A stretch of 64,000 nucleotides of DNA from Bradyrhizobium sp. 170 (GTDB lineage Bacteria; Pseudomonadota; Alphaproteobacteria; Rhizobiales; Xanthobacteraceae). Below the pieces are notes generated by a model. That model was not told where the DNA came from, made no database searches, and saw only the letters and a list, made by a program, of their open reading frames with translations. Positions 48,537 through 64,000 of this stretch are shown here, in pieces (the stretch's first letter is position 1; the number at the start of each line of letters is the position of its first letter). Both the position numbers and the translations under genes were made by a program. Location of the stretch: assembly GCF_023101085.1 (NCBI RefSeq), contig NZ_CP064703.1, positions 1,364,001 through 1,428,000 of the forward strand. The letters run 5' to 3'.

Positions 48537-49550
48537 TCAGCCGATCTCGATCGCCACCTTCCCGAAATGCGCGCCGCTCTCCATATGGGCAAACGCCTGT
48601 TTCACCTGGTCGAACGAAAAGGTCTTGTCGACCACGGGCTTCATCCGGTGAACCGCGATGGCATTCGCCATCGCCTGGAGGTCCTCAATTGATCCGACGG
48701 TGACGCCCTGCAGCCGCTGCTGCTGCATCACCATCAATGGGAGCCGCGAGTCGGACGGCGGCGGGCCGGCGAGCACGCCGATGAACGCGATCGTGCCGCC
48801 GATCCTGGTCGCCCTGATCGATTCGTTCAGCGTGCCGACCCCGCCCACCTCGACGACCAGGTCGACGCCCTGGCCGCTCCACTCGCGGGCTTTCTTTCCC
48901 CAGTCGGGTGTCGCCTTGTAGTTCAACGTGAAGTCGGCGCCGAGATGCTTGAGACGTTTGATCTTCGCATCGCTCGACGAGGTCGCCATGACGCGCGCGC
49001 CGCACATTTTGGCAAACTGAAGTGCGAAGAGAGATACCCCGCCGGTACCCTGCGTCAGAACGGTCTGGCCGGGCTTCACGCCGCCGAGCTTGACGACCGC
49101 GCTCCAGGCCGTGAGCCCGGCGCAGGGTAGCGTGGCGGCTTCGACGTCACTGAGGTGCTCCGGCGTCCTGACCAGCGCGTGCTTTGGAAAGATCCGATAT
49201 TCCGTCAGGACGCCGTCCACCGAGCCGCCGAGGTTTGCGCGCATCTTTGCTTCGCTGGGCTCGCCACCGATCCAGCTTTCGAAGAAACTGCCGACGACGC
49301 GGTCGCCGGCTGCGAATTCCCGCACGCCCGGGCCGACCCGCTCGATCACGCCCGCACCGTCCGAAACCGGCACAAGCGGAAATTTCTGACGCGAGCCGTA
49401 ACCGCCCTTGACGGTGAGAAGATCGCGATAGTTCAGCGTTGCCGCCTTGAGCCGAACCAGCACCTCGCCCTCGCCGGGCTCCGGCACGGGCTTGTCGACG
49501 AGGGCAAGTCCATCGATTCCGCTCGGTCCCTGTAGCTCGTAGCACTTCAA
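48537..49550 (-). CDS. Zinc-independent alcohol dehydrogenase / quinone oxidoreductase-like protein
   Basis: A 337-residue medium-chain dehydrogenase/reductase. The N-terminal GroES-like domain includes LKAATLNYRDLLTVKGGYGS and the later LPCAGLTAWSAVVKLGGVKP. The NAD(P) fold is TVLTQGTGGVSLFALQFAKM. The usual catalytic and structural zinc cysteines are missing (NYRD instead of a Cys-containing loop), as in zinc-free quinone oxidoreductases. ATG 49550 is preceded by GGAG. It probably reduces an activated double bond or carbonyl with NADPH; substrate unknown. Confidence 0.88.
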   Translation of the reverse strand: MKCYELQGPSGIDGLALVDKPVPEPGEGEVLVRLKAATLNYRDLLTVKGGYGSRQKFPLVPVSDGAGVIERVGPGVREFAAGDRVVGSFFESWIGGEPSEAKMRANLGGSVDGVLTEYRIFPKHALVRTPEHLSDVEAATLPCAGLTAWSAVVKLGGVKPGQTVLTQGTGGVSLFALQFAKMCGARVMATSSSDAKIKRLKHLGADFTLNYKATPDWGKKAREWSGQGVDLVVEVGGVGTLNESIRATRIGGTIAFIGVLAGPPPSDSRLPLMVMQQQRLQGVTVGSIEDLQAMANAIAVHRMKPVVDKTFSFDQVKQAFAHMESGAHFGKVAIEIG

Positions 49551-49623: not shown

Positions 49624-50250
49624 TCAGAATCGCGCGGCCATTTCGGCCAGCCGCCGATGTGCGCCTTCGCGTGCGGTGCGGATCGGTTCGAGCGGCCCGG
49701 TGGTCGGTCCGATCGGCACGAAACGGACGTCGGTTACGCCGATGAAGCGCAGCGCCTCGCGCAGATAGGGGGTCGCCATGTCGATGCGGCCGCGATTCAT
49801 GCCGGTGATGAAGTCGCTGCCGCTTGCCAGGATCACGATCGTCGGCCGGTCCTTAAACAGCGGCAGATAGCCTTGCGCCGGATCGTAGCGGAACGCCAGC
49901 CCGGGTTGCGTGATGACGTCGATCCATTGTTTCAGCTTGTAGGGAATGCCAAAATTCCACATCGGCGTCGAAATCAGCACGCGGTCGGCGAGCGCGAAGC
50001 GGAGCGCGATGCGCTCGGTGACCGCAAACGCATCGCGCTGCGAATCCGTGAACGGCCGCCCGCCGATGCGGGCATATTTCGCCTCCAGGACATAACCCTC
50101 GAATTCCGGCAGGTGATCCCGCCACAGGTTCATCACGTCGATGTCCCAGTCCGGCCCTGCCTGGCGGAAGCGGTCAATGAAGACCTTTGCGCCGGCGGAG
50201 GATTCCGAGTCTGCGCGCGGCGAGCAGCTCAGGTGAAAGAGTTTTGGCAT
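49624..50250 (-). CDS. FMN-dependent NADH-azoreductase-like flavodoxin-fold protein
   Basis: A 208-residue AcpD/AzoR-type protein: N-terminal FMN phosphate loop PKLFHLSCSPRADSESSAGA, the central TPMWNFGIPYKLKQWIDVIT that is the hallmark of the family, and TIVILASGSDFITG as a further FMN contact. Such enzymes reduce quinones or azo dyes by two electrons. ATG 50250 is 13 bp from the end of the SMP-30 fusion gene, so it may belong to the same transcription unit. Confidence 0.88.
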   Translation of the reverse strand: MPKLFHLSCSPRADSESSAGAKVFIDRFRQAGPDWDIDVMNLWRDHLPEFEGYVLEAKYARIGGRPFTDSQRDAFAVTERIALRFALADRVLISTPMWNFGIPYKLKQWIDVITQPGLAFRYDPAQGYLPLFKDRPTIVILASGSDFITGMNRGRIDMATPYLREALRFIGVTDVRFVPIGPTTGPLEPIRTAREGAHRRLAEMAARF

Positions 50251-50263
50251 GGCCGCACTCTGT

Positions 50264-51841
50264 TCATCCCAATCCTCTGATGACCGCATCGGCGTTGGTG
50301 ACGACGGCGACGTTCTGCATCGCAAAGTTGATCGAGGCGTTGTGCCAATCCGCGTTCATGGTCGAGCAGCAGTCTTCAGGGACGATCATGAAGTAGCCCT
50401 TGTCGGCGCCGGTGCGGGCGGTGTGCTCGATCGACATGTTGGTCCAGGCGCCGGTGTTGATGATCATGTCGCGGCCGGTCGCCTTGAGGATGGTCTCCAG
50501 CCGCGTGCCTTCCCAGGCACTCATGCGCATTTTCTCGACGATGAAATCGCCGGCGCGCGGCTCCAGCCCCGGAACCGGCGCTGCGCCCCAGCTGCCGCGC
50601 ACCATCGCGCCGCTATCGACCAGTCCCTCGAACAGCGGCGCGTTGAGCGTGACGCCGGGCGCGCCCGGCTCGACGATGAACCAGACGTGGATGATGACGA
50701 CGCCGCGCGCCCGCGCCGCTTCGGCGAGGCGGCGGACATTGTCGACCACCCGCTGCTGGCGCGCGTGCGCAGGCGAGCCGGAATCGGCAAACGCGCCACC
50801 TTCCATGATGACGTCGTTCTGCAAATCCTGAATGATCATCGCGCAGCGCCGGGGATCGAGCTGCATGTCGCCGCTGGCCAATTGAGCTGCGGCGGGCGGG
50901 GAGGAGGCTGCATCGGGACCGGTCGAGGCGCGGCCGCTCATATAGGGTTCGTGGCGCGGCCCGGCCTTGACCGGGATCGCGTAGACCGAATGCGTCGCGG
51001 CCAAATAGAGCGTGCGAAAATCAGCGCCGCCCCAGGCGAGATTGGCGACGAGTTCGGGCACGCGGACCTTGCCGAGCAACTCGCCGGCGGACGAATAGAC
51101 CCAGACGCCGCCGGGTGCCGTGACCCAGACATTGCCGCGCTGGTCGCACTTCATGCCGTCGGGCAGGCCGGGTTCGAGCTCCGAGCGAATGCTGCTGGCG
51201 AAGATTCGCGCATTGGCGAGCGAGCCGTCGGCCTCGACGTCGAAGACGCGGATCAACGCCTGTGTGGTGTCGTTGACATAAAGCAGGCGCTCGTCGGGCG
51301 AGAAGCAGAGCCCGTTCGGCTGGTCGAACAGATGGCGGTCGACCACGAGTTTTGGCGGACCGCCGCCGGGCGGGACCCGATAGACGCCCTGGAAGCCGAG
51401 CTGGCGCGGTCGCTCGACGCCATAGACCGGCATGCGGCCATACCAGGGATCGCTGAAATAGATGGCGCCGCTCGAATGCACACAGACATCGTTCGGGCTG
51501 TTGAGCTCCTGATTCTCGAAATGCGAGGCGATCACCTCGCGCCTTCCGTCGGGGCGCTCGCGGATCAATGACGAGGTGGCATGCTCGCAGACGATCAAAT
51601 TGAGCTCGGCGTCATAGGTCATGCCGTTGCATTTGTTCGACGGGCGCTTGACCTCGACCACGCCGCGCTTGGCGTCCCACCGCCGCCGCACATCGCCGGG
51701 CATATCCGAGAACAGCAGATAGTGATGGACCGGATGCCAGATCGGGCCTTCCGTGAAGTCAAAGCCCGTCCCGACCTGGCCGACGGGCGCGTAGGGGTCG
51801 ATCAGGGTTTCGAATTCCGGGCGCAGCGTGACATGCGTCAT
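50264..51841 (-). CDS. SMP-30/gluconolactonase and isochorismatase-like fusion protein
   Basis: A 525-residue fusion. Residues 10-300 form a six-bladed SMP-30 propeller with the metal-ligand candidates Glu31 (FTEGPIWHP), Asn117 (NSPNDVCVH) and Asp191 (YVNDTTQ), as in gluconolactonases. After a short Ala/Ser/Pro linker (about 305-325) comes an isochorismatase-like domain: Asp339 in IIQDLQNDV, Lys437 in VEKMRMSAW, and Ser470 in NTGAWTNMSIEHT where cysteine hydrolases carry Cys. The Ser variant recalls PhzD-type vinyl-ether hydrolysis rather than amidase chemistry. Last gene of the thirteen-gene minus-strand run. Confidence 0.9.
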   Translation of the reverse strand: MTHVTLRPEFETLIDPYAPVGQVGTGFDFTEGPIWHPVHHYLLFSDMPGDVRRRWDAKRGVVEVKRPSNKCNGMTYDAELNLIVCEHATSSLIRERPDGRREVIASHFENQELNSPNDVCVHSSGAIYFSDPWYGRMPVYGVERPRQLGFQGVYRVPPGGGPPKLVVDRHLFDQPNGLCFSPDERLLYVNDTTQALIRVFDVEADGSLANARIFASSIRSELEPGLPDGMKCDQRGNVWVTAPGGVWVYSSAGELLGKVRVPELVANLAWGGADFRTLYLAATHSVYAIPVKAGPRHEPYMSGRASTGPDAASSPPAAAQLASGDMQLDPRRCAMIIQDLQNDVIMEGGAFADSGSPAHARQQRVVDNVRRLAEAARARGVVIIHVWFIVEPGAPGVTLNAPLFEGLVDSGAMVRGSWGAAPVPGLEPRAGDFIVEKMRMSAWEGTRLETILKATGRDMIINTGAWTNMSIEHTARTGADKGYFMIVPEDCCSTMNADWHNASINFAMQNVAVVTNADAVIRGLG

Positions 51842-51860
51842 CGGTCCGTCCTTTCAGCGC

Positions 51861-52709
51861 TCAGGCCGGGAACCAGTTGCGCTGCGGCAGGCTCTGAACC
51901 ACCGGGCCGGGCACCTGGTCGTGCAGCCGGCCGACCACCACGCCGCCTTCGATCTTGGCCGGTCGGTCGTGGACCGGAAGCAAATAGCGCGAGTTGCTCA
52001 GGAGTTTTTTGATCGCCGCCTTCTCCGCACGCTTGCTGGTGCCGTGATTGCCGGTCGTGCGCGGCTCGGCATCGTGGATCTCGTTGAAGGGGGTGACGAT
52101 CTGATCGTTGAAATCGTAGATCACGTCGCCGCAGATGGTGGCGATACCGTCAGCGGTATGAACGTGGATGTTCATCGAGCCTTCGGTGTGGGCGTTGGCG
52201 GCGTCGCAATAGACGCCCGGCATCAGTTCGATCGGACCGGTCACTTCAAGATCGAGGAAGCGCAGCGCGCTTTTGGTGTGCAGGCGGTCGATCAGGTGCT
52301 TGATATCGGGCGCCGGATATTGCGGATGCATCAATCCGGAGACGGAATATTCCAGCTCCTTGCGGTTGAGCACGACCGTCGTGTTCATCGGAAACAGATC
52401 GTCCTTGCCGGCGTGGTCGATGTGCAAATGGGTGTGGCAGACGTAGCGGACGTCGCCCATGCGCACGCCGTGGCGCGCGAGCTGGTTCTCGATCATGTTC
52501 TCGTGGAACTGAAGCCCGCGCATGCCGAGCGTTTCCATGATCTGGTTGGAGCGATAGCCGGTATCGACCACCACCGGATAGGGACCGCCGACGATCAAAA
52601 AGCCGAGCGTCAGGACACGGCGGGTCCGGCCGCAATCACGGCCGAGCACGAGAAAGCTCGATTCCAGTTCGATATCCCCATAGTCCAAAATCTTGATTTC
52701 AAGCGGCAT
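51861..52709 (-). CDS. Metallo-beta-lactamase-fold lactonase-like hydrolase
   Basis: A 282-residue member of the AHL-lactonase-like MBL group. The dizinc site is complete: HTHLHIDHAG, the later His in NAHTEGSMNI, the bridging Asp in ICGDVIYDF and the terminal His in LLPVHDRP. No signal peptide is present, as in cytoplasmic lactonases. It lies 19 bp upstream of the SMP-30 fusion gene, giving two lactonase-type folds in a row. Quorum quenching is possible; metabolism of a lactone intermediate fits the operon better. Confidence 0.9.
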   Translation of the reverse strand: MPLEIKILDYGDIELESSFLVLGRDCGRTRRVLTLGFLIVGGPYPVVVDTGYRSNQIMETLGMRGLQFHENMIENQLARHGVRMGDVRYVCHTHLHIDHAGKDDLFPMNTTVVLNRKELEYSVSGLMHPQYPAPDIKHLIDRLHTKSALRFLDLEVTGPIELMPGVYCDAANAHTEGSMNIHVHTADGIATICGDVIYDFNDQIVTPFNEIHDAEPRTTGNHGTSKRAEKAAIKKLLSNSRYLLPVHDRPAKIEGGVVVGRLHDQVPGPVVQSLPQRNWFPA

Positions 52710-52739
52710 TTGTCTCTCTCCCCGAATCCTCTTATTCGT

Positions 52740-53630
52740 TTATGTTCCCAGCCGATAAACGCGCAGGGCCGTTGTTCTCAAGACGGCATCGCGCTGCTCC
52801 GCGCGAAGATGCGCTGTCGCGGCGAGATAGGCGTCCACCAGTTCGCGATAGCTGGTCCAAAGTTTCTCGATCGGAAAATTGGAGCCGAACAGACATCGCT
52901 CGGCGCCGAACATCGCCACCGTCTCGGTGAGGACATCGAATACATGCGCCGGATCATTGTGGTGAATGAATGTGCCGAGGCCGGAAAGTTTTGAGACGAT
53001 ATTCGGACAGGCGGCGAGCCGCGTCATGCCACCGCGCCAGGCGGCTCGGCCCTGTGGCGAGAGGTCTTCCAGCATGCCGGCATGCTGCAGGATGAAGGTC
53101 ACGTCAGGACAGGCTTGCGCGAGCTCGGCGGCATCCGCCATCTGCGGCGCGAATACCTGCAGGTCGAAGCTGAAACCATACTCGGCGAGCCGCGCGATGT
53201 TGCGCCGGATCTTAGGGTCGGCGCAGAGGTCCGGACGCGCGGCAAATCGATAGAGCGGGTTGTCGTGCCAGTGCAGTTGCATGCGCACGCCGCGCACCAG
53301 CGGATAGCGCGCGAGACGATCGAGCTGTGGGCGGACGTCATCGACGTTGAAATCAGCGTAGGAGACGATGGCGTGCGGCCAGCCGTGGTCCTTCGCGGTT
53401 TGCTGCACCCAGGCGGTTTCGTCCTCGAAGCGACCATTGGCCCAGTTGGTCTGTACATAGACCGAGCGCGTCACGCCGGAGCCGGCGAGATCATCGAGAT
53501 ATTCCTGAATCGGATAGTCGCGCCGGATCGGCTCGTAGGGGCCGAAGATGCGCGGCTGCATCGGGCCGCTCAGCCAGGGCAGGTCGGCCTGACGCCAGAT
53601 ATGGTGATGGGCATCGACGAGTTCGGTCAC
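52740..53630 (-). CDS. Amidohydrolase-family TIM-barrel protein
   Basis: A 296-residue amidohydrolase-2 protein: first-strand metal motif VDAHHHIWRQ, mid-barrel RGVRMQLHWHDNPLYRF, FILQHAGMLED and the terminal LFGSNFPIEKLW, where many relatives have Asp in place of the Asn. Related enzymes hydrolyse lactones (fuconolactonase, PDC lactonase) or decarboxylate aromatics. The start codon GTG overlaps the end of the MBL side by 30 bp spacing, and its 5' end overlaps the VWA gene stop (GTGA). Confidence 0.85.
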   Translation of the reverse strand: MTELVDAHHHIWRQADLPWLSGPMQPRIFGPYEPIRRDYPIQEYLDDLAGSGVTRSVYVQTNWANGRFEDETAWVQQTAKDHGWPHAIVSYADFNVDDVRPQLDRLARYPLVRGVRMQLHWHDNPLYRFAARPDLCADPKIRRNIARLAEYGFSFDLQVFAPQMADAAELAQACPDVTFILQHAGMLEDLSPQGRAAWRGGMTRLAACPNIVSKLSGLGTFIHHNDPAHVFDVLTETVAMFGAERCLFGSNFPIEKLWTSYRELVDAYLAATAHLRAEQRDAVLRTTALRVYRLGT

Positions 53631-54745
53631 GCGGCCTTCCTTTGTCCGAGCGAGAGCACATGCGAAACGATGGCGGCGGTGGACCCGCCGTCGACCAGAT
53701 CATCCACGAAGCGCCGGATCGCGATCAGCGCTTCAGTCTGCGGCTGAAAACCGGGACCGGCGGCGAGCGGCGTCAGCCAGCTCAGGCGCCAGGCGCGTCG
53801 CGACAACTTTGCGACGGCATCGCGCAACGCAGATGGATCGCCGCGCTCAAGGCCGTCGGAGACGATGAAGACGGCGGCGCCGCGCGCATAGCTGCCGAAT
53901 CTTGGCACCGCCAGGAACGCCTGCAGCGCGTCGCCGATGCGGGTGCCGCCGTCCCAATCGCTGACCAGATGTGCGGCCGCCGACAGCGCCTGCTCGCGGC
54001 GCTTGAGACGGAGCGCACGGGTGACGCGGGTGAGGCGGGTGCCGAAGGTGAACACTTCGACATTGGGAGCTGCGTGCGACAGCGCATGCGCGAGCTTCAT
54101 ATTGTCGTCGGTACGCCCCTTCATCGAGCCAGAGACGTCGATCAGCAACAACACCTTGCGCGGCCGGGCACGACGCTTCAGCCGTCCGAGCCGCAGCACC
54201 TCGCCGTCATTGCGCACGCTCTCGCGCAGGGTGCGGCGCAGATCGGCCCAAGGGCCGCGGCGGGCGCGCATCCGGCGATGGCCGCGCCGCCGCGGCAGCC
54301 GCGCGGGGGCCTCTCGTGACAGCTTTCGCAAGGCGTCACCGGTTTGGCTCGGCGCGAAGCGGCGTTCGACCAGCGCCTCGGCGCGGGCCGCGGCAAGTCC
54401 GGACTCATTGGCTTCGTCGGCCAGCAGCGTTTCGTCCTCGCCGCGTCCTTCCTCCTGCAGGCGAACCACTTCCTCATCTTCTGCGCCTGCGCGATCCACC
54501 GCTTCGCTGCCGAGGAAATGAATGTCGAACAGGCGGTCGTAGGTCGCGCGCCGCTCGGGCGGCGGGGCGAGTGTTGCCAAGCCGGCCTGCCGAATGGCGT
54601 CGAGGCTGCGCGGGCCCAGCAGCTCTATCGCCGCGAGGAATGCCGTTGTCTGTTCCGGTGCCACGGCAAAACCGTTGACGCGCAGCAGCGCGACAAAGGA
54701 TACGAACACGCGCGCCGCGTGAGGTAGCTGAAGTTCGTCGATCAC
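53627..54745 (-). CDS. VWA-domain maturation factor (CoxE-like)
   Basis: A 372-residue protein: an N-terminal helical region with an acidic, low-complexity middle (AGAEDEEVVRLQEEGRGEDE), an Arg-rich stretch (PRRRGHRRMRARRGPWADL), and a von Willebrand A domain with the metal site DVSGSM at 203-208 and SDGLERGDP. CoxE-type proteins work with MoxR ATPases (CoxD) to mature molybdenum hydroxylases. The ATG overlaps the ATPase stop by four bases, as in cox operons. Confidence 0.88.
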   Translation of the reverse strand: MIDELQLPHAARVFVSFVALLRVNGFAVAPEQTTAFLAAIELLGPRSLDAIRQAGLATLAPPPERRATYDRLFDIHFLGSEAVDRAGAEDEEVVRLQEEGRGEDETLLADEANESGLAAARAEALVERRFAPSQTGDALRKLSREAPARLPRRRGHRRMRARRGPWADLRRTLRESVRNDGEVLRLGRLKRRARPRKVLLLIDVSGSMKGRTDDNMKLAHALSHAAPNVEVFTFGTRLTRVTRALRLKRREQALSAAAHLVSDWDGGTRIGDALQAFLAVPRFGSYARGAAVFIVSDGLERGDPSALRDAVAKLSRRAWRLSWLTPLAAGPGFQPQTEALIAIRRFVDDLVDGGSTAAIVSHVLSLGQRKAA

Positions 54746-55623
54746 GCGGCAGCCTCCGCAATGAGGGCATCGAGCCGGCCGGAGATGAAGGTGAGATCCT
54801 CCTCGTCCTTCAGCGCAACGCCTATCGAGCGCTTGAAGGCATCGGGCCAGCGCGCGCCGCGCTCGTGCAATAGCGTGGCCGCTTCCGCCCAGTCCACCGC
54901 CTCGGCGATGCCCGGCGCCTTGCTCAGCGGTTCGCGCCGCAGCCGGCCGACGGCGGCGACCACGGCGCGCGCGGTTGCTTCGGCGACGCTCGACGCCCGC
55001 ATCATCACGATGCGCGCCTCGCGCTCGGCCGTCGGATAGTCGATCCAGTGATAGACACAGCGGCGGCGCAACGCCTCGTGCAGGTCGCGGGTGCGGTTCG
55101 ACGTCAGTACGACGACGGGGCGTTCCGCCGCGCGGACCGTGCCGCGCTCGGGGATCGAAATCTGGAAGTCGGAGAGGAATTCGAGCAGGAACGCCTCGAA
55201 CTCCTGGTCGGCGCGATCGATTTCATCGATCAGCAGCACGGTGGAGTCGGGCGCACGCAGCGACGCGAGCATCGGCCGTTCGATCAGAAAAGTCTCGCCA
55301 TAGATGTCGATGCTCTCTTCGCCCGCCTGCCGGATGGCGAGCATCTGGCGCGGATAGTTCCACTCATAGAGCGCGGCTGATGCGTCGATGCCCTCATAGC
55401 ATTGCAGGCGGATCAGGCGGCGGCCGAGCACGGCAGCGATGGCTTTTGCGGCTTCGGTCTTGCCGACCCCCGGCGCACCTTCCAAGAGCAGCGGCTTTCC
55501 GAGCGCCAGCCCAAGATAGGCTGCCGTCGCGAGGCCGTCGTCGGCAAGGTAATAGGCCGTGCGCAACGCCCGTTCGAGCGCCTCGGGGCTGTCGATGCCG
55601 ACGATGTTGCCGCGAACCGCCAT
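54742..55623 (-). CDS. MoxR-family AAA+ ATPase (CoxD-like)
   Basis: A 293-residue chaperone-like ATPase: Walker A GAPGVGKT (49-56), Walker B VLLIDEID (129-136), sensor 1 VVVLTSNRTRDLHEALRRRC, and a C-terminal lid. CoxD is required to insert the metal cofactor in CO dehydrogenase. It immediately follows the second half of the large-subunit gene (8 bp) and precedes the VWA gene, with which it probably forms a maturation pair. Confidence 0.9.
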   Translation of the reverse strand: MAVRGNIVGIDSPEALERALRTAYYLADDGLATAAYLGLALGKPLLLEGAPGVGKTEAAKAIAAVLGRRLIRLQCYEGIDASAALYEWNYPRQMLAIRQAGEESIDIYGETFLIERPMLASLRAPDSTVLLIDEIDRADQEFEAFLLEFLSDFQISIPERGTVRAAERPVVVLTSNRTRDLHEALRRRCVYHWIDYPTAEREARIVMMRASSVAEATARAVVAAVGRLRREPLSKAPGIAEAVDWAEAATLLHERGARWPDAFKRSIGVALKDEEDLTFISGRLDALIAEAAA

Positions 55624-55631
55624 GTTCTGCC

Positions 55632-56654
55632 TCAGCGCCTCGCCTGCGGCCGCGCGCCGCCCTGCGCCTTGATCGCCCGCAGGACTTTTTCCGGCGTGAT
55701 CGGCAATTCATCCATCCGCACGCCGACGGCGTTGAAGATGGCGTTGGCCACCGCGGGCAGCACGGGATTGGCGCACATTTCTCCGGGCCCCTTGGCGCCG
55801 AACGGTCCGTCGGCTGCGGGGCGCTCCAGCACGGCGATATCATGCGGGCAGATGTCGCCGGGGCCGGGCATCAGATATTCGACGAAGTCGCGCGGGCCAT
55901 GCGCCGGGTCGGGATAATAGGGCTCGGGCGTTTCAAACAGCGCGTGACTGATCCCCATCCACGCGCCGCCGACGAGCTGCTGCTCCACCAGGCGCGGATT
56001 GAGCGCGCGGCCCAGTTCATAGGCACTGTCCATCCGCACCATCGCGACCTCGCCAGTCTCGTCATCGACCTCGACCTCGGCGACCAGGCAGGCATGCGCG
56101 TAGCAGGTGGCGGGCGACATCTCGCCGGTCTCGGGATTGACCTCGGAGAGCGGCACCAGAAAGATGCCGCGCCCCGATATCGTCTTGCCCTGCTTGAACT
56201 GCGCAGCGATGGCGACGTCCTTGGTGGAGATTGAGCGGTGCGGCGCGCCCTTGACGTGGATGTTGCCGCGCCCGTCGGTATCGAGGTCGGCGGCGTTGAC
56301 TTCCAGTTCCTCGGCGGCGGCTTCCATCATGACGCCGCGCGCCTCTTTGGCCGCCGCCATGACGGCGTTGCCGACGCGATGGGTGCCGCGCGAGGCGAAC
56401 GAGCCCATGCAATGCGGACCCGTGTCGGAATCCGCGGTGTCGACATAGACGTCTTCGACCGGCACGCCGAGCGTCTCCGCGCAGATCTGCCGCGTCACCG
56501 ATTTCATGCCCTGGCCGAGATCGATCGATGACAGCGACACCGTGAACTTGCCGCTGGGGTTGGAATGAACCAGCGCCTGGCTGGGATCGCCGCCGAGATT
56601 CATGCCGATGGGATAGTTGATTGAGGCGATGCCGCGTCCGCGATGCCTGGCCAT
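55632..56654 (-). CDS. Molybdenum hydroxylase large subunit, C-terminal half (separate gene)
   Basis: A 340-residue protein equal to the second molybdopterin-binding domain of xanthine-dehydrogenase/CoxL-type large subunits. It starts MARHRGRGIASINYPIGMNL and includes GQGMKSVTRQICAETLGVPV, GSFASRGTHRVGNAVMAAAK and the catalytic Glu292 in FGAKGPGEMCANPV. Its ATG lies two bases after the stop of the preceding gene, and AGGAGG inside that gene's last codons is placed correctly for it, so it is translated as its own chain. Must associate with the N-terminal half to form an active enzyme. Confidence 0.9.
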   Translation of the reverse strand: MARHRGRGIASINYPIGMNLGGDPSQALVHSNPSGKFTVSLSSIDLGQGMKSVTRQICAETLGVPVEDVYVDTADSDTGPHCMGSFASRGTHRVGNAVMAAAKEARGVMMEAAAEELEVNAADLDTDGRGNIHVKGAPHRSISTKDVAIAAQFKQGKTISGRGIFLVPLSEVNPETGEMSPATCYAHACLVAEVEVDDETGEVAMVRMDSAYELGRALNPRLVEQQLVGGAWMGISHALFETPEPYYPDPAHGPRDFVEYLMPGPGDICPHDIAVLERPAADGPFGAKGPGEMCANPVLPAVANAIFNAVGVRMDELPITPEKVLRAIKAQGGARPQARR

Positions 56655-56656
56655 GG

Positions 56657-58240
56657 TCAGCGCCTCCTGGTGCCGAAGACGGAAGAGAAACGGGCGGCGC
56701 CATGCGATGGCGATGGAGTTTGCGGCCTCGGAGGAGGAGGCGCCGGCGCGGGCGCCGGCGGCTGGGTGGTTGCAGCCGGCGCACGATCGTAGGTGGTTCG
56801 CTGCTGCGACGCCGCGGCGCGCTGCGGAACAGGTTCAAGCGGCGTCGGCGAAATCGCCGCCCGATTGCCGCCGCCATCCTTTCGCGATGACATGCGCCTG
56901 GCCTCTTCGCGTAGCGGCCACTTGGCCTTTTCAGCGGCGACCTGGACGCATTCGATCAGCGCGGTGTTTTTCGCCTCGCGCCGGTGCGCCTTCATGTCGC
57001 CGTCGCGATAGGCGTTGAGGATCCGAAACTCCATCGGGTCGATGCCGACGAGATGGGCGAGCTTGTCCATCTGGCATTCGAGCGCAAAGTCCATCGCCGT
57101 GACGCCGAAGCCGCGCATCGCGGTCGCCGGAGTACGGTTGGTGAACACGCAGTAGATGTCGCCGGAGACGTTGGGGATCGTATAGGGGCCGGGCAGGTGA
57201 GCCGCGCATTTGACCACGGCGTAGCTGGAAAGCCGGGTATAGGCGCCGCTGTCGAAATAGGCGCGGATCTTGCGAGCGACGATGCGGCCGTCGCGCATCA
57301 CGCCGTCCTTGATGTAGATGCGCTCGGCGCCGCGCGGCGAACCGAACTGCATCTCCTCTTCGCGGCCGAGCTGATAGCGCACCGGACGCCCGGTCAGCAT
57401 GGCGCCGAGAATCGCGAGCGGTTCGGTGAGCGTGTCCACCTTGCCGCCAAAGCCGCCGCCGACGGTCCCGCCGATGAAGTGGAAGGTGTTGGAGGGGACG
57501 TCGAGGATTTTTGCGCAGGTGTCGAGCGAGAAGAACAGCGCCTGCGTCGAGGTGTAGACGACATAGCGTCCGTTGGTGTCGGGGGCGGCGATCGAGCCAT
57601 TGGTTTCGGTCGGCGCGTGCTCGATCGGCGACATCTGGTAGCGCTGTTCGAGGACATGATCGGCCTCGGCGAACCCGCGCTCGACATCGCCGAAGCGCAG
57701 CTTTTGATGGTCGTAGACGTCGTGATAAATGAAGGTGTTCTTGGGGTAGGTCTCGTTGACGACCGGCGCGCCTGGCTTCAGCGCGTCCTCGACGTCGAAC
57801 ACCGCGGGCAGCGGCTCGTAGTCGACCCGCACTTTTGCGAGCGCTTCGAAGGCTTCTCTTGGGCTGTCGGCGACGACAGCGACGATCGGTTCGCCCTTGT
57901 AGCGGACCTTGTCGACCGCCAGCGAAGGCTCGTCGTCCTTGCCGAAGTTGATCAGGCTGAGCAGGGTGTTGAGATTGACCGGCACGTCGGCGCCGCGGAT
58001 GATGCGCCGCACGCCGGGCGCGCGTTCCGCTTCCATCGTATCGATGCGGCGCAGGCGGGCGTGGGCGTGCGGGCTGCGCAGTACCTTGAGATGGAGCATG
58101 CCCTGCAGCTTGTGATCGTCAAAGTAGGTCGAGGTGCCCGTGACATGGCCGAGCATGTCCTGGCGCTGCGTGCCCTTTCCGATCTCTTTCAAATTATCGT
58201 CGCGCTCGTCGGCGAAGATGTCCTTGCGCAATTCCAGCAT
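56657..58240 (-). CDS. Molybdenum hydroxylase large subunit, N-terminal half with Pro-rich tail
   Basis: A 527-residue chain: aldehyde oxidase/xanthine dehydrogenase a/b hammerhead (residues 25-150) and first molybdenum-binding domain (150-445), with GGTVGGGFGGKVDTLTEPLA at 258 and TAMRGFGVTAMDFALECQMD at 373. The latter is the xanthine-dehydrogenase form, not the AYxCSFR loop of true CO dehydrogenase. It ends with a Pro/Ala/Thr-rich tail (about 455-520, such as PPAPAPAPPPPRPQTPSPS) instead of the second domain, which is encoded next. ATG 58240 follows AAGGGA. Confidence 0.9.
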   Translation of the reverse strand: MLELRKDIFADERDDNLKEIGKGTQRQDMLGHVTGTSTYFDDHKLQGMLHLKVLRSPHAHARLRRIDTMEAERAPGVRRIIRGADVPVNLNTLLSLINFGKDDEPSLAVDKVRYKGEPIVAVVADSPREAFEALAKVRVDYEPLPAVFDVEDALKPGAPVVNETYPKNTFIYHDVYDHQKLRFGDVERGFAEADHVLEQRYQMSPIEHAPTETNGSIAAPDTNGRYVVYTSTQALFFSLDTCAKILDVPSNTFHFIGGTVGGGFGGKVDTLTEPLAILGAMLTGRPVRYQLGREEEMQFGSPRGAERIYIKDGVMRDGRIVARKIRAYFDSGAYTRLSSYAVVKCAAHLPGPYTIPNVSGDIYCVFTNRTPATAMRGFGVTAMDFALECQMDKLAHLVGIDPMEFRILNAYRDGDMKAHRREAKNTALIECVQVAAEKAKWPLREEARRMSSRKDGGGNRAAISPTPLEPVPQRAAASQQRTTYDRAPAATTQPPAPAPAPPPPRPQTPSPSHGAARFSSVFGTRRR

Positions 58241-58251
58241 GGTCGTTCCCT

Positions 58252-58731
58252 TCAGGCGCGGGCGCGTCCGCTCGTGGCGGCGGCGAGGACGGCGTTGATG
58301 ATCGGCTCGTAGCCGGTGCAGCGGCAGATGTTGCCCGAGATCGCCTCGACGACCTCGGCGCGGGTCGGCGAGGGGTTGCGATCGAGCAGCGCCTTCGCCG
58401 CCATCAGCATGCCCGGCGTGCAGTAGCCGCACTGGGCCGCGAATTGCTCCATGAAGGCGCGCTGCAGCGGATGCAGATTGGGTCCGTCCTTCATCCCGTC
58501 GAGCGTCTCGATCGAGCGGCCGTTCACGGTTTCCGCCAGCGTCAGGCAGGAGAGATGGAGTTCGCCGTCGATCAGCACGCTGCAGGCGCCGCAGCCGCCC
58601 TGGCCGCAGCCGAACTTCGGCGTCATGTCGCCGATCGATTCGCGCAGCGCAACCAGCAGATTGACGCCGCCGTCGACGAACAAAGCGACGTCGCGGCCGT
58701 TGTGACGAAACTGGAGCGGGGTCTTGGTCAT
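58252..58731 (-). CDS. Molybdenum hydroxylase 2Fe-2S small subunit
   Basis: A 159-residue iron-sulfur subunit. The plant-type cluster site is Cys42, Cys47, Cys50 (GCGQGGCGACSVLIDG) and Cys62. The second cluster is bound by Cys101, Cys104 (QCGYCTPGM) and Cys136, Cys138 (NICRCTGYEPI). It passes electrons from the molybdenum site to the FAD subunit encoded just upstream. It lies 6 bp after that gene and 11 bp before the large-subunit gene. Confidence 0.95.
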   Translation of the reverse strand: MTKTPLQFRHNGRDVALFVDGGVNLLVALRESIGDMTPKFGCGQGGCGACSVLIDGELHLSCLTLAETVNGRSIETLDGMKDGPNLHPLQRAFMEQFAAQCGYCTPGMLMAAKALLDRNPSPTRAEVVEAISGNICRCTGYEPIINAVLAAATSGRARA

Positions 58732-58737
58732 GAATGC

Positions 58738-59556
58738 TTACTCCAGGCCTGACAGCAGGCGGCGAAGATGGACGCCGACGATCTCGCGGCGATACCAGGC
58801 GCTGCCAAGGGCGTTGTCGGCCGGCGATACGCCCTCCGTTGCGGCCGCAGCCGCGGCGCTGATCGCCGCGTCGTCCAGCGAGCGGCCCTCCAGCGCGCGC
58901 TCGGCGGCCCTTGCGCGAAGCTGCGTCGCGGCCATCGAGCCGAGTGCGATGCGCGCCCCCGATATGCGGCCACCGCTCGAAGGCAGATGCGCGGCCAGCG
59001 TAATCACCGAGCCCCCCTTGGGCTTTATGCGGGCGATCTTGCGATAGCGGAAGGCGTCGGCGCTTGCGGGTCGCGCACAGGAGACCGCCAGCACCAGCGC
59101 GCCGCTCTGGCGTTCGCGAGATTGCAAAAATTCCTCGATTGCCATGTTGCGTGCGCCGAGGCCGCCCTGGACAGAGACGGTCGCGTCGAGCGCCAGCAGC
59201 GCGACGGTGAAATCGCCGTAGGGGCTGGGTGCAAACAGATTACCTCCCACCGTGCCCATGTTGCGCACCGCCGGTCCGCCGATCGAGCGGGCGGGTGCGT
59301 GCAGAAAGGCAAGATCGCGCTCGGCCAGAATTTTTGCAAATGTGACGCCGGCGCCGATCGTGATGCGTGAACTCGCGATATCGATGCGGGACAGCGCCTG
59401 GTCGGTCGCGTGCACGACGGTCGAGATCGAGACATCGCCTTCGTTGAGCGCGCGCATCACAAGCGTGCCGCCGCCGAGATAGCGCGCGCCGCGGTCGGAC
59501 GACAGCGCCGACGCCGCTTCGCCAAAACTCGCGAATGTCTTCACCGTGACGGGCAT
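58738..59556 (-). CDS. Molybdenum hydroxylase FAD-binding medium subunit
   Basis: A 272-residue FAD domain of the CoxM/xanthine dehydrogenase type. The first flavin motif is RYLGGGTLVMR (AGGT-like) and the second GGPAVRNMGTVGGNLFAPSP. The C-terminal CO-dehydrogenase-flavoprotein domain includes RYRKIARIKPKGGSVITLAA. It receives electrons from the 2Fe-2S subunit and passes them to an acceptor (quinone or NAD, not decidable). Part of the uninterrupted operon. Confidence 0.92.
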   Translation of the reverse strand: MPVTVKTFASFGEAASALSSDRGARYLGGGTLVMRALNEGDVSISTVVHATDQALSRIDIASSRITIGAGVTFAKILAERDLAFLHAPARSIGGPAVRNMGTVGGNLFAPSPYGDFTVALLALDATVSVQGGLGARNMAIEEFLQSRERQSGALVLAVSCARPASADAFRYRKIARIKPKGGSVITLAAHLPSSGGRISGARIALGSMAATQLRARAAERALEGRSLDDAAISAAAAAATEGVSPADNALGSAWYRREIVGVHLRRLLSGLE

Positions 59557-59572
59557 GGTTTTGCCTCCGCGT

Positions 59573-60016
59573 TCATGCGGCCTCCCTCAGGTGCCGGCGA
59601 ATGGCTTCGAAGCCGGCTTGATAGATCTGTTCGGCGACCATCTGCGTCAGCCGTTCGGCATCCGCGGGCCGCGTGGTGAAGCGGGATTCCCAATGCCAGA
59701 AGGTGCGGTCGCCGTCGGTGACCGGCAGCAACCGGACATGGGCCACATAGTTGAACATAGGGATCGGCGTATCGAGCAGGCAATAGCTGAAGGTCTGTTC
59801 GAGGTCCGACAGCGCGAGCAGTTGCTCGCGCAGCTCCGAGCCGTCTTGCAGCTTGAAGCGTCTGATACAGCCGATCTTGTCGGGGGCCTGCGCCCGCTCG
59901 ATGGTGCTGGTCGCGACCGCCGGGTGCCAGCGGTCGTGGCCGTTGAAATCGCGCAGCACATTCCAGACCGCGCCGGTCGGCGCGTTGAGGATGGTGCTTT
60001 TGACGATATGCGGCAC
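59573..60016 (-). CDS. SRPBCC-domain protein (copy A)
   Basis: A 147-residue START/SRPBCC ligand-binding fold: VKSTILNAPTGAVWNVLRDF, NGHDRWHPAVATSTIERA, CLLDTPIPMFNYVAHVRLLP and a long C-terminal helix MVAEQIYQAGFEAIRRHLRE. It is a clear paralogue of the next gene. Similar proteins (CoxG-like) accompany molybdenum hydroxylases and may anchor them to the membrane or bind the hydrophobic substrate. Its ATG follows the neighbour stop by 2 bp. Confidence 0.85.
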   Translation of the reverse strand: MPHIVKSTILNAPTGAVWNVLRDFNGHDRWHPAVATSTIERAQAPDKIGCIRRFKLQDGSELREQLLALSDLEQTFSYCLLDTPIPMFNYVAHVRLLPVTDGDRTFWHWESRFTTRPADAERLTQMVAEQIYQAGFEAIRRHLREAA

Positions 60017-60017
60017 G

Positions 60018-60455
60018 CTAGCCTCCGAAGGCGCGCTTGAGCGCGTCGAAGCCGCCCTGAAACACGCCAGTTCCGATATTGTTGACGAGTTCGTTTTCCC
60101 GCTCGGGTGCGCAGTCGAACTCGGCGGTCCATTCGAGAAAGGTCTGGTCGCCGTCGGTCACCGGTGTCAGCCGCAGGGTCGCGACGTAGTTCTCCACTCC
60201 CATCGGCGACTCCAGGATCGAATAGGTGCAGAACATCTCGTAGTCGGAGAGGCCGAGCAGCTTTTCGCGGATGCGGTCGCCGTTGCGCAGGCGAAAGTCG
60301 CGCACGCATCCGATCTTGTCCGCGGGCTCACCGCCCTCGATGCGGCTCTCCGCGATGGCAGGATGCCAGTTCGGCATTCCGTTGAAGTCGCGCACGCGCG
60401 CCCAGACGCGGTCGTTGCGGGCGTTGACGACGGTGGAGACGTAGACCCGGGCCAT
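60018..60455 (-). CDS. SRPBCC-domain protein (copy B)
   Basis: A 145-residue paralogue of copy A with the same plan: RVYVSTVVNARNDRVWARVR, DFNGMPNWHPAIAESRIEGG, SILESPMGVENYVATLRLTP and the helix VNNIGTGVFQGGFDALKRAF. Sharing of DFNG-x2-x-WHPA and NYVA-LRL marks a tandem duplication followed by divergence. Position between the SPFH gene and the molybdenum hydroxylase genes supports an accessory role. Confidence 0.85.
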   Translation of the reverse strand: MARVYVSTVVNARNDRVWARVRDFNGMPNWHPAIAESRIEGGEPADKIGCVRDFRLRNGDRIREKLLGLSDYEMFCTYSILESPMGVENYVATLRLTPVTDGDQTFLEWTAEFDCAPERENELVNNIGTGVFQGGFDALKRAFGG

Positions 60456-60464
60456 GGCGTGCTC

Positions 60465-63362
60465 TTAACCTTTCTTGCGCGGTCCGCGTTCGGCGGCGGG
60501 CGCGCTGGGGGTGTCGGGGGCAGGCGGCGCGTCGGGTTTGCCTGGACCGACCTTGCGGGCTTCCGCTTCCTTGATGCCCTGCATGTCGCGCGCCTCGCGG
60601 ATCAGGCCGGGCATCTTGGAAAGGCTGCCGCCCTCGACGCCGATATCGGCGAGGATCGAGTCGATCAGCGGCGCCTGCACCCGGTAGCGCAGCGCCGAGT
60701 CGATCACCTCGTCGGTGGCGCTGCGGCCGCCATTGCCACCGCCGCCGCCGTTGAGGCCGTCGACCTGAAGGATGCGGATGCCCTCGATCTTCTCCATCGG
60801 CTTGACGCTCTCGCGCACGATGCCCTCGATGCGGTCGAGCAGCTTGCGGCGGAACAGCGAGTAGCGCGCCTGGTCGGTAAGCACGTTCTCGGCTTCGTTG
60901 AGCAGCCGCTGCGCCTCGGCTTCGACGGCGGCGCGGACGCGCTCGGCATCGGCCCCGATCTTCGTTTCCTCGGCTCGCTTCTCCGCCAGCAGCACCTCGA
61001 TGGTCTTCTGGCGCCTGGCGATTTCGCTGTCGCGGGCGGTGACGACGCGCTCGGCCGCTTCGGTCGCCCCCACGCGCGCATCCTCGGCCGCCACCTTGGC
61101 GGCCGATTCCTCGAGAGACTTCTGATAGAGGGCGATGGCCTTGTCCATCAGCGCCGTTTCGACGTCCTTCTCGCGATTGACTTCGAGCTTGCGCAGATCG
61201 CGCTCGCGGCCGATCCGCGCTTCGTCGAGGCCGCGGTCGGAGGCGATGCGCGCCCGCTCGACTTCCTCGCGGGAGGCGATCTCGGCTTCCTGCAGCGCCT
61301 GGACGCGGGCGACTTCAAGCTGCTCGATCGCACGCCGGCGGGCGAGCCGTACCGTCTCGAGCGCCTGTTCGCGGGAGACATCTGACGTCTCGACTTCCTT
61401 GCGCGCGATGATCTCGGCCTGCTTGACCAGGCGATCGGCATCGATGCGCTCGGACCGCTTGGCGGCGAGCGCGATGACACGCTCCTCATCGGCGATCTCG
61501 ACCGCCTTCTTCTGGTCGATGTTGAGCACCTCGCGGGTCTTCGACGAGGCGATGCGCTCGGCTTCCAGCGCCAGATCGACCTCGACACGCCGCCGTTCGA
61601 TCGCATCGCGGCGCTTGAGTTCGGCGGCCTCGATCGATTCAGTGCGATCGATCTCGAGCCCCCGGGTTTCCTTCTCCGCCCGGATACGCTGGGCGGCGAT
61701 CACCTTCTCCTGGGCGATGCGCGCGGCCTCAATCGCTTCGCGCGCGGCGATGTCGGCTTCCTCGATGGCGCGGTTGCGCGCGATTTCGAGCGAGCGAACG
61801 CGCTCTTCCTGGGCGATGCGGGAGGATTCGGTCGCCTCGCGCGCGGTGATCCCTGCGACTTCGAGCGCCTGGTTGCGCTCGATTTCCAGCTTGCGCGTAG
61901 CGTGCTCGGCGCCGATCCGCTCGGCTGCGAGCGTCCGCTCCCGCGCAATCCTTGCTGCTTCCACCGCCTTTTGCGCCTCGATCTCCGCTTCCTGAATAGT
62001 GCGGACCTGCGCGATCTCCAGCGAGCGGGTGCGCTCGTCGGAGGCGATACGTTCGAGGTTGACGATCGTGGTCTGGGCGATGCGAGCCTTTTCGGTCGCC
62101 TCGCGCGCCGCGATCTCGGCTTCCTCGACCGCGCGGGTCCGTTCGATCTCCCGCCTGCGGGTTTCTTCCTCGTTGGCGATCCGCGCGTCCGTGATCGAGC
62201 GATCCTGCTGGATGCGCGCCTTCTCGACCGCTTCGCGGGCCGTGATCTCGGCTTCCTCGACCGACCGCGTGCGCTCGATGTCGCGTTGGCGAACTTCGCG
62301 CTCTGAGGCGATGCGGGCGGTATCGACCGCGCGCTGATTGGCGATCTTGGCCTTTTCGATATCCTCGCGCGCCAGCAATTCCTTTTCCTCGACCGCGCGC
62401 GTGCGCTCGATCTCGCGGTGACGGGTCTCGCGTTCAGAGGAGATGCGGGCTTCGGCGATCGACTGTTCGTTGGCGATGCGCGCCTTCTCAATTGTCTCGC
62501 GGGCGGAAATCTGAGCCTGCTCGGCCTCGGTCTCGCGCAACGCGCGTTCGCGCGCCACCTCGGTGCGCTGCAGCGCCCGGCGCATCTCGATGTCACGTTC
62601 CTGTTCAAGGCGGGCGGTCTCGCTCTCGCGCTCGATCTCCAGCGCCTGGCGCTCGGCATCGAGGTTGCGGGTGCGGATCCTGATCATCGAATCCTGTTCG
62701 ATGTCGTTGCGCAGCTTGCGCTTGGCCTCGATGTCTTCCATCAGGCGGGTCAGGCCCTCGGCGTCGAACCGGTTCGACGGATTGAAATACTCCAGGTCGG
62801 TCTGATCAAGATCGGTGATGGCGACAGATTCCAGCTCAAGCCCGTTCTGGGCAAGCGCCTCGGCGGCGGCGGCCTTGAGCCGCGTTACGTATTCGCCGCG
62901 CTGCTCGTGCATCTGCTCCATGGTCATTTCGGCGGCGACCGACCGGATGGCGGAGACGAACTTGCCGGAGAGCAGGGCGTGCAACTGCTCGGGTTCGAGC
63001 GTGCGCCGGCCGAGCGTGGCGGCGGCGATGGCGACTGCCTCGCGCGTCGCCTGAACGCGGACGTAAAAATCGGCCTCGATGTCGATACGCATGCGGTCGC
63101 GGGTGATCACCGCGTCATGCTTGGCCCGCACGATGCCCATCGGCAGCACGTTCATGTTGACGGGCGTGTAGTCGTGAATGAACGGCAGCACGAAGGCGCC
63201 GCCGTTGATCACGACGCGTTCGCCGAGCAGACCGGTTCGCACAAAGGACACTTCCTTCGACGAACGGTGGTAGAGCCAGTTCACGATGTAGACGACGATA
63301 GCGATCACGACGATCGCAACGATCAGCCAGAGGATCAATTCGCCAACCAGAGTCCCCGACAT
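60465..63362 (-). CDS. Giant flotillin-like SPFH/band-7 protein with hendecad repeats
   Basis: A 965-residue protein. One N-terminal membrane helix (residues 9-30, LILWLIVAIVVIAIVVYIVN) is followed by an SPFH domain (35-200: VVINGGAFVLPFIHDYTPVN, RMRIDIEADFYVRVQATREA). A very long coiled coil (about 220-840) contains eight consecutive units of 44 residues (one of 33), and a flotillin C-terminal region (ALLAEKRAEETKIGADAERV) ends in a Gly-rich and Pro-rich tail. The family (YqiK/flotillin) scaffolds membrane microdomains. It is the second gene visible of the molybdenum-hydroxylase operon. Confidence 0.9.
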   Translation of the reverse strand: MSGTLVGELILWLIVAIVVIAIVVYIVNWLYHRSSKEVSFVRTGLLGERVVINGGAFVLPFIHDYTPVNMNVLPMGIVRAKHDAVITRDRMRIDIEADFYVRVQATREAVAIAAATLGRRTLEPEQLHALLSGKFVSAIRSVAAEMTMEQMHEQRGEYVTRLKAAAAEALAQNGLELESVAITDLDQTDLEYFNPSNRFDAEGLTRLMEDIEAKRKLRNDIEQDSMIRIRTRNLDAERQALEIERESETARLEQERDIEMRRALQRTEVARERALRETEAEQAQISARETIEKARIANEQSIAEARISSERETRHREIERTRAVEEKELLAREDIEKAKIANQRAVDTARIASEREVRQRDIERTRSVEEAEITAREAVEKARIQQDRSITDARIANEEETRRREIERTRAVEEAEIAAREATEKARIAQTTIVNLERIASDERTRSLEIAQVRTIQEAEIEAQKAVEAARIARERTLAAERIGAEHATRKLEIERNQALEVAGITAREATESSRIAQEERVRSLEIARNRAIEEADIAAREAIEAARIAQEKVIAAQRIRAEKETRGLEIDRTESIEAAELKRRDAIERRRVEVDLALEAERIASSKTREVLNIDQKKAVEIADEERVIALAAKRSERIDADRLVKQAEIIARKEVETSDVSREQALETVRLARRRAIEQLEVARVQALQEAEIASREEVERARIASDRGLDEARIGRERDLRKLEVNREKDVETALMDKAIALYQKSLEESAAKVAAEDARVGATEAAERVVTARDSEIARRQKTIEVLLAEKRAEETKIGADAERVRAAVEAEAQRLLNEAENVLTDQARYSLFRRKLLDRIEGIVRESVKPMEKIEGIRILQVDGLNGGGGGNGGRSATDEVIDSALRYRVQAPLIDSILADIGVEGGSLSKMPGLIREARDMQGIKEAEARKVGPGKPDAPPAPDTPSAPAAERGPRKKG
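61527..62549 (-). repeat. 132-bp coding repeats in the SPFH gene (44-residue coiled-coil units)
   Basis: Residues 272-612 consist of units beginning REIERTRAVEE or variants (RDIERTRSVEE, LEIAQVRTIQE, LEIARNRAIEE, LEIDRTESIEA). Seven have exactly 44 residues and one (492-524) has 33, so the period is a multiple of 11 throughout. This repeated DNA also creates long accidental ORFs on the other strand. Confidence 0.85.
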
Positions 63363-63386
63363 CTTTTCCTCCCTTTGCTCCCGGCG

Positions 63387-64000
63387 TTACCGCGCGCCGA
63401 TCGCCTTGAATTTACGTACCTGTTCCGTGAGCGCCCGCTCCACAGGCAGGCGCTCCATCGAGGAGGCGCCGTAGAAGCCGTGGCACTTGCGCGTGTGTTT
63501 CATGATGAAGTCGGCATCATCAGGCTCGGCGATCGGACCGCCATGGGCCAGCACCAGTATGTCCGGATTGACGCTGAGCGCCGCTTCTGCCCAGGTGTCG
63601 ATCTGTTCCGGGCAGTCTTCGAGTTTTAATGCGGTGTGCGCGCCGATCGCGCCGCCGGTGGTCAGGCCGAGATGGCAGACGATGATGTCGGCGCCGGCAA
63701 TCGCCATCGCCGTCGCCTGGCTTTCGCTGAACACATAGGGCGTCGTCAGCATGTCCTTGTCCCGCGCCTTGGCGATCATGTCGATCTCCAGCGCGTAGGA
63801 CATTCCGGTTTCCTCGAGATTGGCGCGGAACACTCCGTCGATCAGTCCGACCGTCGGAAAGTTCTGCACGCCGGCAAAACCCAGCGCCTTCAACTGGTCG
63901 AGGAAAAGGTCCATGTCGCGGAACGGGTCGGTGCCGTTGACGCCGGCCAGCACCGGAGTCCTGGTCACCACCGGCAGCACTTCGCCGGCCATTTCCACGA
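63387..64000 (-). CDS. PEP-hydrolase-like TIM-barrel protein, C-terminal part (runs off window)
   Basis: About 205 residues of a TIM-barrel protein of the phosphoenolpyruvate hydrolase-like / TIM-barrel signal transduction family: [80 protein letters not shown] and [20 protein letters not shown]. The frame is open to the right-hand edge, so the true start lies beyond 64000. It is the first visible gene of the minus-strand run, 24 bp ahead of the SPFH gene. Relatives are often next to UPF0261 (Tm-1-like) genes, which may lie further upstream. Confidence 0.85.

Follow-up and report, generated by a model that had tools for sequence, protein, structure and literature searches.

A conserved Bradyrhizobium operon combining a split, tailed molybdenum hydroxylase subunit with a flotillin-like SPFH protein and an importer fusion

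How might a molybdenum (Mo) hydroxylase, an importer, several hydrolase-like proteins and a flotillin-like SPFH protein work together when their genes form a single operon? This question is raised by a locus of Bradyrhizobium sp. 170, located in a window of 64,000 nucleotides (contig NZ_CP064703.1, positions 1,364,001 to 1,428,000; the coordinates below are those of this window) within a 9.2 Mb single-contig genome. Our preferred answer, to which we give a probability of about 45%, is that the locus serves the catabolism of a small organic compound taken up from outside, its operon forming a membrane-tethered uptake-and-oxidation module in which a tail on the N-terminal half of the Mo subunit (N-half) would serve as a docking peptide.

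As we picture it from sequence comparison, an ATP-binding cassette (ABC) importer of the branched-chain-amino-acid/urea type would bring the compound in; in this importer a Tm-1-like UPF0261 enzyme is joined to the LivF ATPase (LivF::Tm1) and has a TBST protein as partner. The SPFH protein, with its probable very long coil, would gather the enzymes at the membrane, and the terminal peptide of the N-half may dock the Mo enzyme to this SPFH module. A four-subunit Mo hydroxylase of the nicotinate dehydrogenase type, presumably matured by the MoxR and VWA proteins, would oxidise the compound, and the amidohydrolase, metallo-beta-lactamase (MBL) and SMP-30 proteins could then hydrolyse the oxidation product. 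The two SRPBCC proteins might carry a hydrophobic substrate or a quinone, and the whole pathway would be catabolic. The gene set and its order, the split of the Mo subunit, the LivF::Tm1 fusion, the tail and its terminal peptide, all read from the sequences, are the firm ground of this proposal.

The split Mo subunit and its tail

Four genes encode the Mo hydroxylase, on the minus strand like all genes of the operon in the window: the flavin adenine dinucleotide (FAD) subunit (58738..59556; PF00941, PF03450), the 2Fe-2S subunit (58252..58731; PF00111, PF01799), the NdhL-like N-half of 527 amino acids (aa; 56657..58240; PF01315, PF02738) and the NdhM-like C-terminal half (C-half; 55632..56654; PF20256), which starts 2 nucleotides (nt) past the stop of the N-half. 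The upstream bases place the start codon of the N-half at the ATG 58238-58240. Among solved structures, both halves best matched the nicotinate dehydrogenase of Eubacterium barkeri (3hrd_A with 209 bits and 3hrd_B with 164 bits, respectively), and the start of the C-half coincides with that of NdhM, the split lying at the NdhL/NdhM junction. The Mo-site motif G(A/G)KGxGE was present in 125 of 125 C-halves, and we take its Glu to be the catalytic Glu of the Mo site.

The Mo subunit was split in the 76 readable loci of a first set of 80 (the four others are cut at the junction) and in the 29 loci of a second set (L121-L149), as well as in plasmid relatives from the archaeon Salinigranum and from Nonomuraea. 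The stop-to-start gap between the halves was between -8 and 4 nt in 26 of these 29 loci and reached 582, 772 and 1125 nt in the other three, and an additional open reading frame (ORF) lies between the halves in L128 (116 aa) and L131 (120 aa). A sequencing error or frameshift was ruled out as the origin of the split, since it occurs at one fixed place, each of the two frames varies freely from locus to locus and the gap is so narrow in 26 of 29 loci. The constancy of the split, together with the gaps or the extra ORF between the genes, indicates that the halves are separate proteins. Single read-through proteins were found in only 3 of 120 listed cases (P0063, P0080 and P0092; 865 to 872 aa), and by eye these look like out-of-frame readings of the tail. 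The interposed ORF of L128 and L131 is small and Cys-rich, and by eye it resembles glutathione-dependent formaldehyde-activating enzymes. On a plasmid of the haloarchaeon Salinigranum rubrum (L250), the split enzyme is found with FAD and 2Fe-2S genes and with an SRPBCC gene downstream.

The split is not new in itself. The nicotinate dehydrogenase of E. barkeri (3HRD; NdhFSLM) is likewise made of four subunits, and its Mo subunit is divided at this very position, its subunit make-up being given in the available part of PMC10331938. It differs from our operon in its partner genes, and its NdhL has no comparable tail, as the 425 aa of 3hrd_A align with the N-half no further than residue 439.

In Bradyrhizobium sp. 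170 this proline-rich C-terminal tail covers about 72 aa (56660..56875, with approximate borders) and ends with the peptide RFSSVFGTRRR (56660..56692), the proposed docking motif. We compared the N-halves of 100 loci with a readable SPFH gene and of 11 loci without SPFH, i.e. with none within 7-9.7 kb upstream of the FAD gene, which is a property of the locus and not of the genome. L203, whose Mo protein is another enzyme (32% identical), was left out of this count, and L161 (no readable N-half) and L253 (broken reading of the N-half) also fall outside it. In each of the 100 loci, position 455 is followed by a tail of 68 to 179 residues with about 29% proline. The length and sequence of this tail drift freely while its terminus is constant: an RF(S/A/I)...RRR end was found in 100 of 100 loci, most commonly as SHGATRFSSVFGTRRR and as an SRFISG(T/S)RRR variant in five of them. 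Conversely, in the 11 loci without SPFH the N-half always stops near residue 455 and has no tail. Outside these two groups, the Nonomuraea and Salinigranum N-halves are tail-less, and Yoonia has both the tail and the SPFH gene. Another six loci have the tail but run into a contig edge upstream: L011 and L123 show part of the SPFH gene, L072, L082 and L083 stop before it, and L160 is considered below. Such a pattern, in which the terminus is conserved and the linker before it drifts, would be expected of a binding peptide. The tail that accompanies SPFH lends indirect support to the suggestion of an earlier note on this DNA, made from the sequence alone, that the SPFH protein may organise the enzyme at the membrane.

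Operon extent, conservation and reuse

The earlier note had described 13 genes on the minus strand, and Pfam agrees with the domains that it had named. The gaps within this stretch, said to be mostly under 31 bp, range from -4 to 30 bp; overlaps of 4 bp do exist, but there are two of them (MoxR/VWA and VWA/amidohydrolase) rather than several. The operon had also been confined to 50264..64000, and this cuts it. The TIM-barrel PEP_hydrolase-like gene (TBST; 63387..64000; PF09370 with 314 bits, 2P10 with 398 bits) continues past the window edge to about 64220. It is followed upstream by LivF::Tm1 (64223-66460 in window numbering), LivG, LivM and LivH, with successive gaps of 2, -8, -29 and 1 bp. 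Beyond LivH, an AraC gene and a binding-protein gene are separated by gaps of 129 and 142 bp. The class of the importer, branched-chain amino acid/urea, was deduced from the binding protein and the ATPase. At the other end, a Flavodoxin_2 (quinone-reductase-like) gene (49624..50250; PF02525) lies 13 bp downstream and is probably part of the operon in Bradyrhizobium; a zinc-type dehydrogenase gene (48537..49550; PF00107) lies 73 bp further down.

We then examined the neighbourhood in 104 loci with matches to both SPFH and the Mo C-half, 32 of them from outside Bradyrhizobium, by testing 15 genes or domains per locus. From Tm1 to the isochorismatase-like domain, those found were collinear and on one strand in all 104 loci, so the arrangement is not due to chance; this bears out the fixed gene set with a split Mo hydroxylase, MoxR/VWA partners and SPFH that had been proposed. 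All 15 were present in 89 loci (24 of the 32 outside Bradyrhizobium), and in the 15 incomplete loci a gene is lacking or partly cut by contig or fetch edges. When LivG and LivF were included in the order test, 92 of 104 loci were collinear; in the three exceptions examined (L039, L058 and L043), the best LivG match lies elsewhere in the stretch. At E <= 1e-100, the Mo C-half was detected in 49 of 297 genomes of the order, the closest matches being in Bradyrhizobium (e.g. B. australiense, jicamae and lablabi). The operon is also present in other orders of the class, and a Yoonia plasmid carries it, followed by genes for a short-chain dehydrogenase/reductase (SDR), a fumarylacetoacetate-hydrolase-family protein and another SDR. 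L057, from a record titled Frankia sp. RB7, has a Bradyrhizobium-like operon and is perhaps mislabelled or contaminated.

In each of 38 loci, LivF and Tm1 form a single reading frame, and a (T/N/P)RW(S/T/G) linker motif was found in 103 of 103 LivF::Tm1 frames of at least 600 aa; in other operon sets it reads NRWN or TRWN. In a search of the class for Tm1, 12 genomes had frames long enough for the fusion (768 to 891 aa), and each of these genomes also had SPFH matches; the remaining frames have 366 to 531 aa. UPF0261 and TBST proteins are reported to co-evolve and proposed to interact (PMC5028733); the present case differs from such pairs in that UPF0261 is fused to the LivF ATPase.

A second operon type occurs in other Alphaproteobacteria. 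It comprises the importer, LivF::Tm1, TBST, a shorter SPFH protein (685 to 690 aa in seven of the eight measured, 571 in L204), SRPBCC 1, and SRPBCC 2 fused to a quinone-oxidoreductase-like (QOR) domain. SRPBCC 2 of our operon shares 50% identity over 143 aa with its QOR-fused counterpart, and the zinc-type dehydrogenase mentioned above shares 26% identity over 254 aa with the QOR domain. In nine loci of this second type an Amidohydro_1 gene comes next, and most of the nine add genes for a fumarylacetoacetate hydrolase and an alpha/beta-hydrolase; L202, L203 and L206 have parts of the module, these hydrolases being absent from the stretch. The amidohydrolases of L194-L201 begin with a short N-terminal leader, often xxW(G/S)G followed by a Gly/Ser-rich stretch, which could be a second tag. 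A similar set is found in Variovorax. Finally, two genomes of the order (G209 and G105; loci L254 and L255) have a minimal set of importer, LivF::Tm1, SPFH, SRPBCC 1 and SRPBCC 2-QOR, without TBST or hydrolases, and both hold a tail-less Mo core elsewhere as well (L140 and L166). New here, besides the tail with its conserved end, is that the same importer, LivF::Tm1, SPFH and SRPBCC pair are found again together with other enzyme sets.

We found no description of this operon, nor of a LivF::Tm1 fusion, in the titles and abstract beginnings of open-licence literature, where the fusion was sought only under the names UPF0261, Tm-1-like and TBST. The statement of the earlier note that it knew of no described pathway with exactly this set agrees with this literature.

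A scaffold or a co-inherited cluster

The SPFH protein (60465..63362) has 965 aa and contains, like bacterial flotillins, Band_7 (PF01145) and Flot (PF15975) domains. It differs from them by its score far below the cut-off of the NCBIfam FloT model (18.9 vs. 700 bits), by a very long helical stretch and by its catabolic-looking operon. Its AlphaFold2 model shows an N-terminal helix, the SPFH domain and a helix over most of residues 204-825, so that a long coil is likely. With its first 240 residues as query (E <= 1e-30), relatives were found in 49 of 385 genomes of the class. The two SRPBCC proteins (SRPBCC 1, 60018..60455; SRPBCC 2, 59573..60016) are encoded just downstream; the model of SRPBCC 1 is a confident START-like fold that most resembles bacterial XoxI-like proteins and plant hormone receptors.

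The same data admit another explanation, namely that there is no physical scaffold: the SPFH protein, the importer and the enzymes would be co-inherited as a cluster and yet act apart, the tail being a spacer between coupled genes. The position of the tail, at a coupled gene junction, agrees with this, as do the SPFH relatives found outside such operons (L205, L207, L208 and L209). However, a mere spacer would not preserve its terminal residues when everything before them changes in length and sequence, and the tail and its end are still present in the three loci whose halves are 582 to 1125 nt apart. We consider this explanation rather improbable.

Several observations nevertheless weigh against the docking of a tailed Mo enzyme on an SPFH scaffold. 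When 50 concatenated Mo subunits were placed in a midpoint-rooted tree, the 11 tail-less loci formed one fully supported clade and the rest a second one. The tail and the SPFH module therefore part from the rest at a single fork and represent one evolutionary event, as expected also without a scaffold, and their association cannot by itself prove contact. The contig of L160, where a tailed Mo enzyme is encoded by widely spaced genes, stops about 280 bases short of the FAD gene, and no SPFH match was found in the genome, which is 89% complete in 550 contigs; L160 may be an exception, a tailed enzyme without SPFH, which would fit a cluster of proteins acting apart. The two genomes with a tail-less core beside no SPFH gene (G209 and G105) own an SPFH operon elsewhere. 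The confidence of the SPFH model is low (mean predicted local distance difference test score of 63). As to a CoxG-like quinone shuttle, CoxG does not appear among the matches listed for the fold of SRPBCC 1, a result that excludes nothing, and Pfam gives only Polyketide_cyc2 (PF10604) for the SRPBCC proteins. In addition, two further ideas were rejected. The length of the Mo tail does not track that of the SPFH protein, as a ruler would (r = -0.07, 30 loci). A docking motif TR(W/F)S shared by the LivF linker, the Mo tail and the amidohydrolase of the second operon type was no better than chance: at widths of 3, 4 and 5, control windows scored at least as high as the real one in 118, 61 and 41 of 561 cases for the Mo tail and in 107, 50 and 27 of 561 for the LivF linker, and a motif-like SRF(T) also occurs inside the folded SRPBCC 2. 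We treat the motifs as separate.

Chemistry of the operon and its meaning

The genes next to the C-half encode a MoxR-type AAA+ ATPase (54742..55623; PF07728, PF00004) and a CoxE-type VWA protein (53627..54745; PF05762 with 164 bits). The nucleotide motif of MoxR was found in 124 of 124 frames and the DxSGSM motif of VWA in 110 of 116. The NCBIfam model MadB gave 271 bits for MoxR, below its cut-off of 475, and we found no literature on a MadB/MadC pair with a Mo hydroxylase. A MoxR ATPase and a CoxE-type VWA protein also adjoin the Mo hydroxylase of the cox cluster (aerobic CO dehydrogenase), where CoxG has been proposed to connect the enzyme with the membrane and the quinone pool (PMC4240915 and PMC13240472, from partial texts). 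Our operon differs from this cluster, as its Mo enzyme stays well short of the CO dehydrogenase cut-offs (with TIGR02416 the two halves gave 167 and 111 bits, against 991 for the large subunit), its SRPBCC proteins match only the Pfam family given above, and SPFH, Tm1, TBST and lactonase-like folds are additional.

Three hydrolase-like genes follow. The amidohydrolase (52740..53630; PF04909) is nearest to the L-fucono-1,5-lactonase model (NF052480, 105 bits, below the cut-off of 400) and matches 4dlf with 64 bits. The MBL-fold protein (51861..52709; PF00753) is lactonase-like: its metal motif HxHxDH was kept in 101 of 101 loci, and the model for AiiA-type N-acyl homoserine lactonases gave 46.6 bits against a cut-off of 375. 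The last protein joins an SMP-30 domain (PF08450) to an isochorismatase-like domain (50264..51841; PF00857). In 102 of 102 frames, TNMS(V/I)EHT in this domain has Ser at the position of the family's catalytic Cys. A normal amidase is thus unlikely, and the domain has perhaps a non-amidase or binding role. None of the three proteins reaches a curated cut-off. That a lactam or lactone is opened by these three hydrolases, as proposed, is thus no more than a possibility, with the conserved MBL motif for it and the isochorismatase Ser and the scores against it.

Regarding the substrate, one reading in line with the earlier note is the catabolism of N-heterocycles, in which a pyridine-like ring would be hydroxylated next to its nitrogen and opened afterwards. 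This idea derives from the likeness to nicotinate dehydrogenase alone, the best match of both halves among solved structures and an enzyme with the same split (PMC10331938, as above). No gene of the operon that Pfam identified or whose frame was read, however, encodes a ring-opening oxygenase or ring reductase, the isochorismatase-like domain lacks the amidase cysteine, and the Mo enzyme scores far below the curated cut-offs for xanthine, 4-hydroxybenzoyl-CoA and CO dehydrogenases. We therefore regard N-heterocycles as quite unlikely substrates.

A serious rival to N-heterocycles is a sugar-type oxidation, in which the Mo enzyme would turn a cyclic aldose or related hemiacetal into a lactone, to be opened by the amidohydrolase, MBL and SMP-30 proteins acting as lactonases. 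The affinity of the amidohydrolase to the L-fucono-1,5-lactonase model and 4dlf points in this direction. The 11 loci without SPFH, which keep FAD, 2Fe-2S and both Mo halves together (and MoxR, VWA and amidohydrolase in all but L144), add some sugar-like neighbours: according to Pfam, a Peripla_BP_4 binding protein and an epimerase in L140 and an aldo-keto reductase in L142, others being judged by eye only. A published case is deoxyribose oxidation in Pseudomonas simiae, where a Mo dehydrogenase is accompanied by a lactonase and a lactone has been proposed as the intermediate (PMC6365646, in the available part). According to the same partial source, that enzyme belongs to another, iorAB-like subfamily with two subunits and cytochrome c, it is suspected to be periplasmic, and major facilitator superfamily transporters are found instead of an ABC importer. 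Moreover, the importer in the SPFH-bearing form is of the branched-chain-amino-acid/urea and not of a sugar class, and no such sugar neighbours were listed at the Salinigranum relative. We hold the sugar route to be unlikely. Riboflavin catabolism was also considered as a described match and rejected: it has the xanthine-oxidase-like step of LumJ, and no SRPBCC, isochorismatase or metallo-beta-lactamase appears in the available part of PMC12746152.

The preferred reading, a tethered uptake-and-oxidation module, can be put more broadly. Bacterial flotillin-like SPFH proteins could be cargo scaffolds, on which two components would assemble as a membrane uptake-and-oxidation machine, an importer fused to the first enzyme and an oxidoreductase that carries a loading peptide at its C-terminus; different enzyme sets (Mo hydroxylase, quinone-oxidoreductase/fumarylacetoacetate-hydrolase/amidohydrolase, or minimal) would be plugged into this machine. 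We offer this generalisation tentatively, as possible but on balance doubtful.

Little is known of the partners that bacterial SPFH/flotillin proteins keep in place. The operon supplies a concrete candidate for an SPFH client, namely the Mo enzyme, with its tail and terminal peptide that accompany the neighbouring SPFH gene. It also places Tm-1-like and TBST proteins, whose role in bacteria is unknown, beside a transporter ATPase, and it shows the split Mo subunit in one more context.

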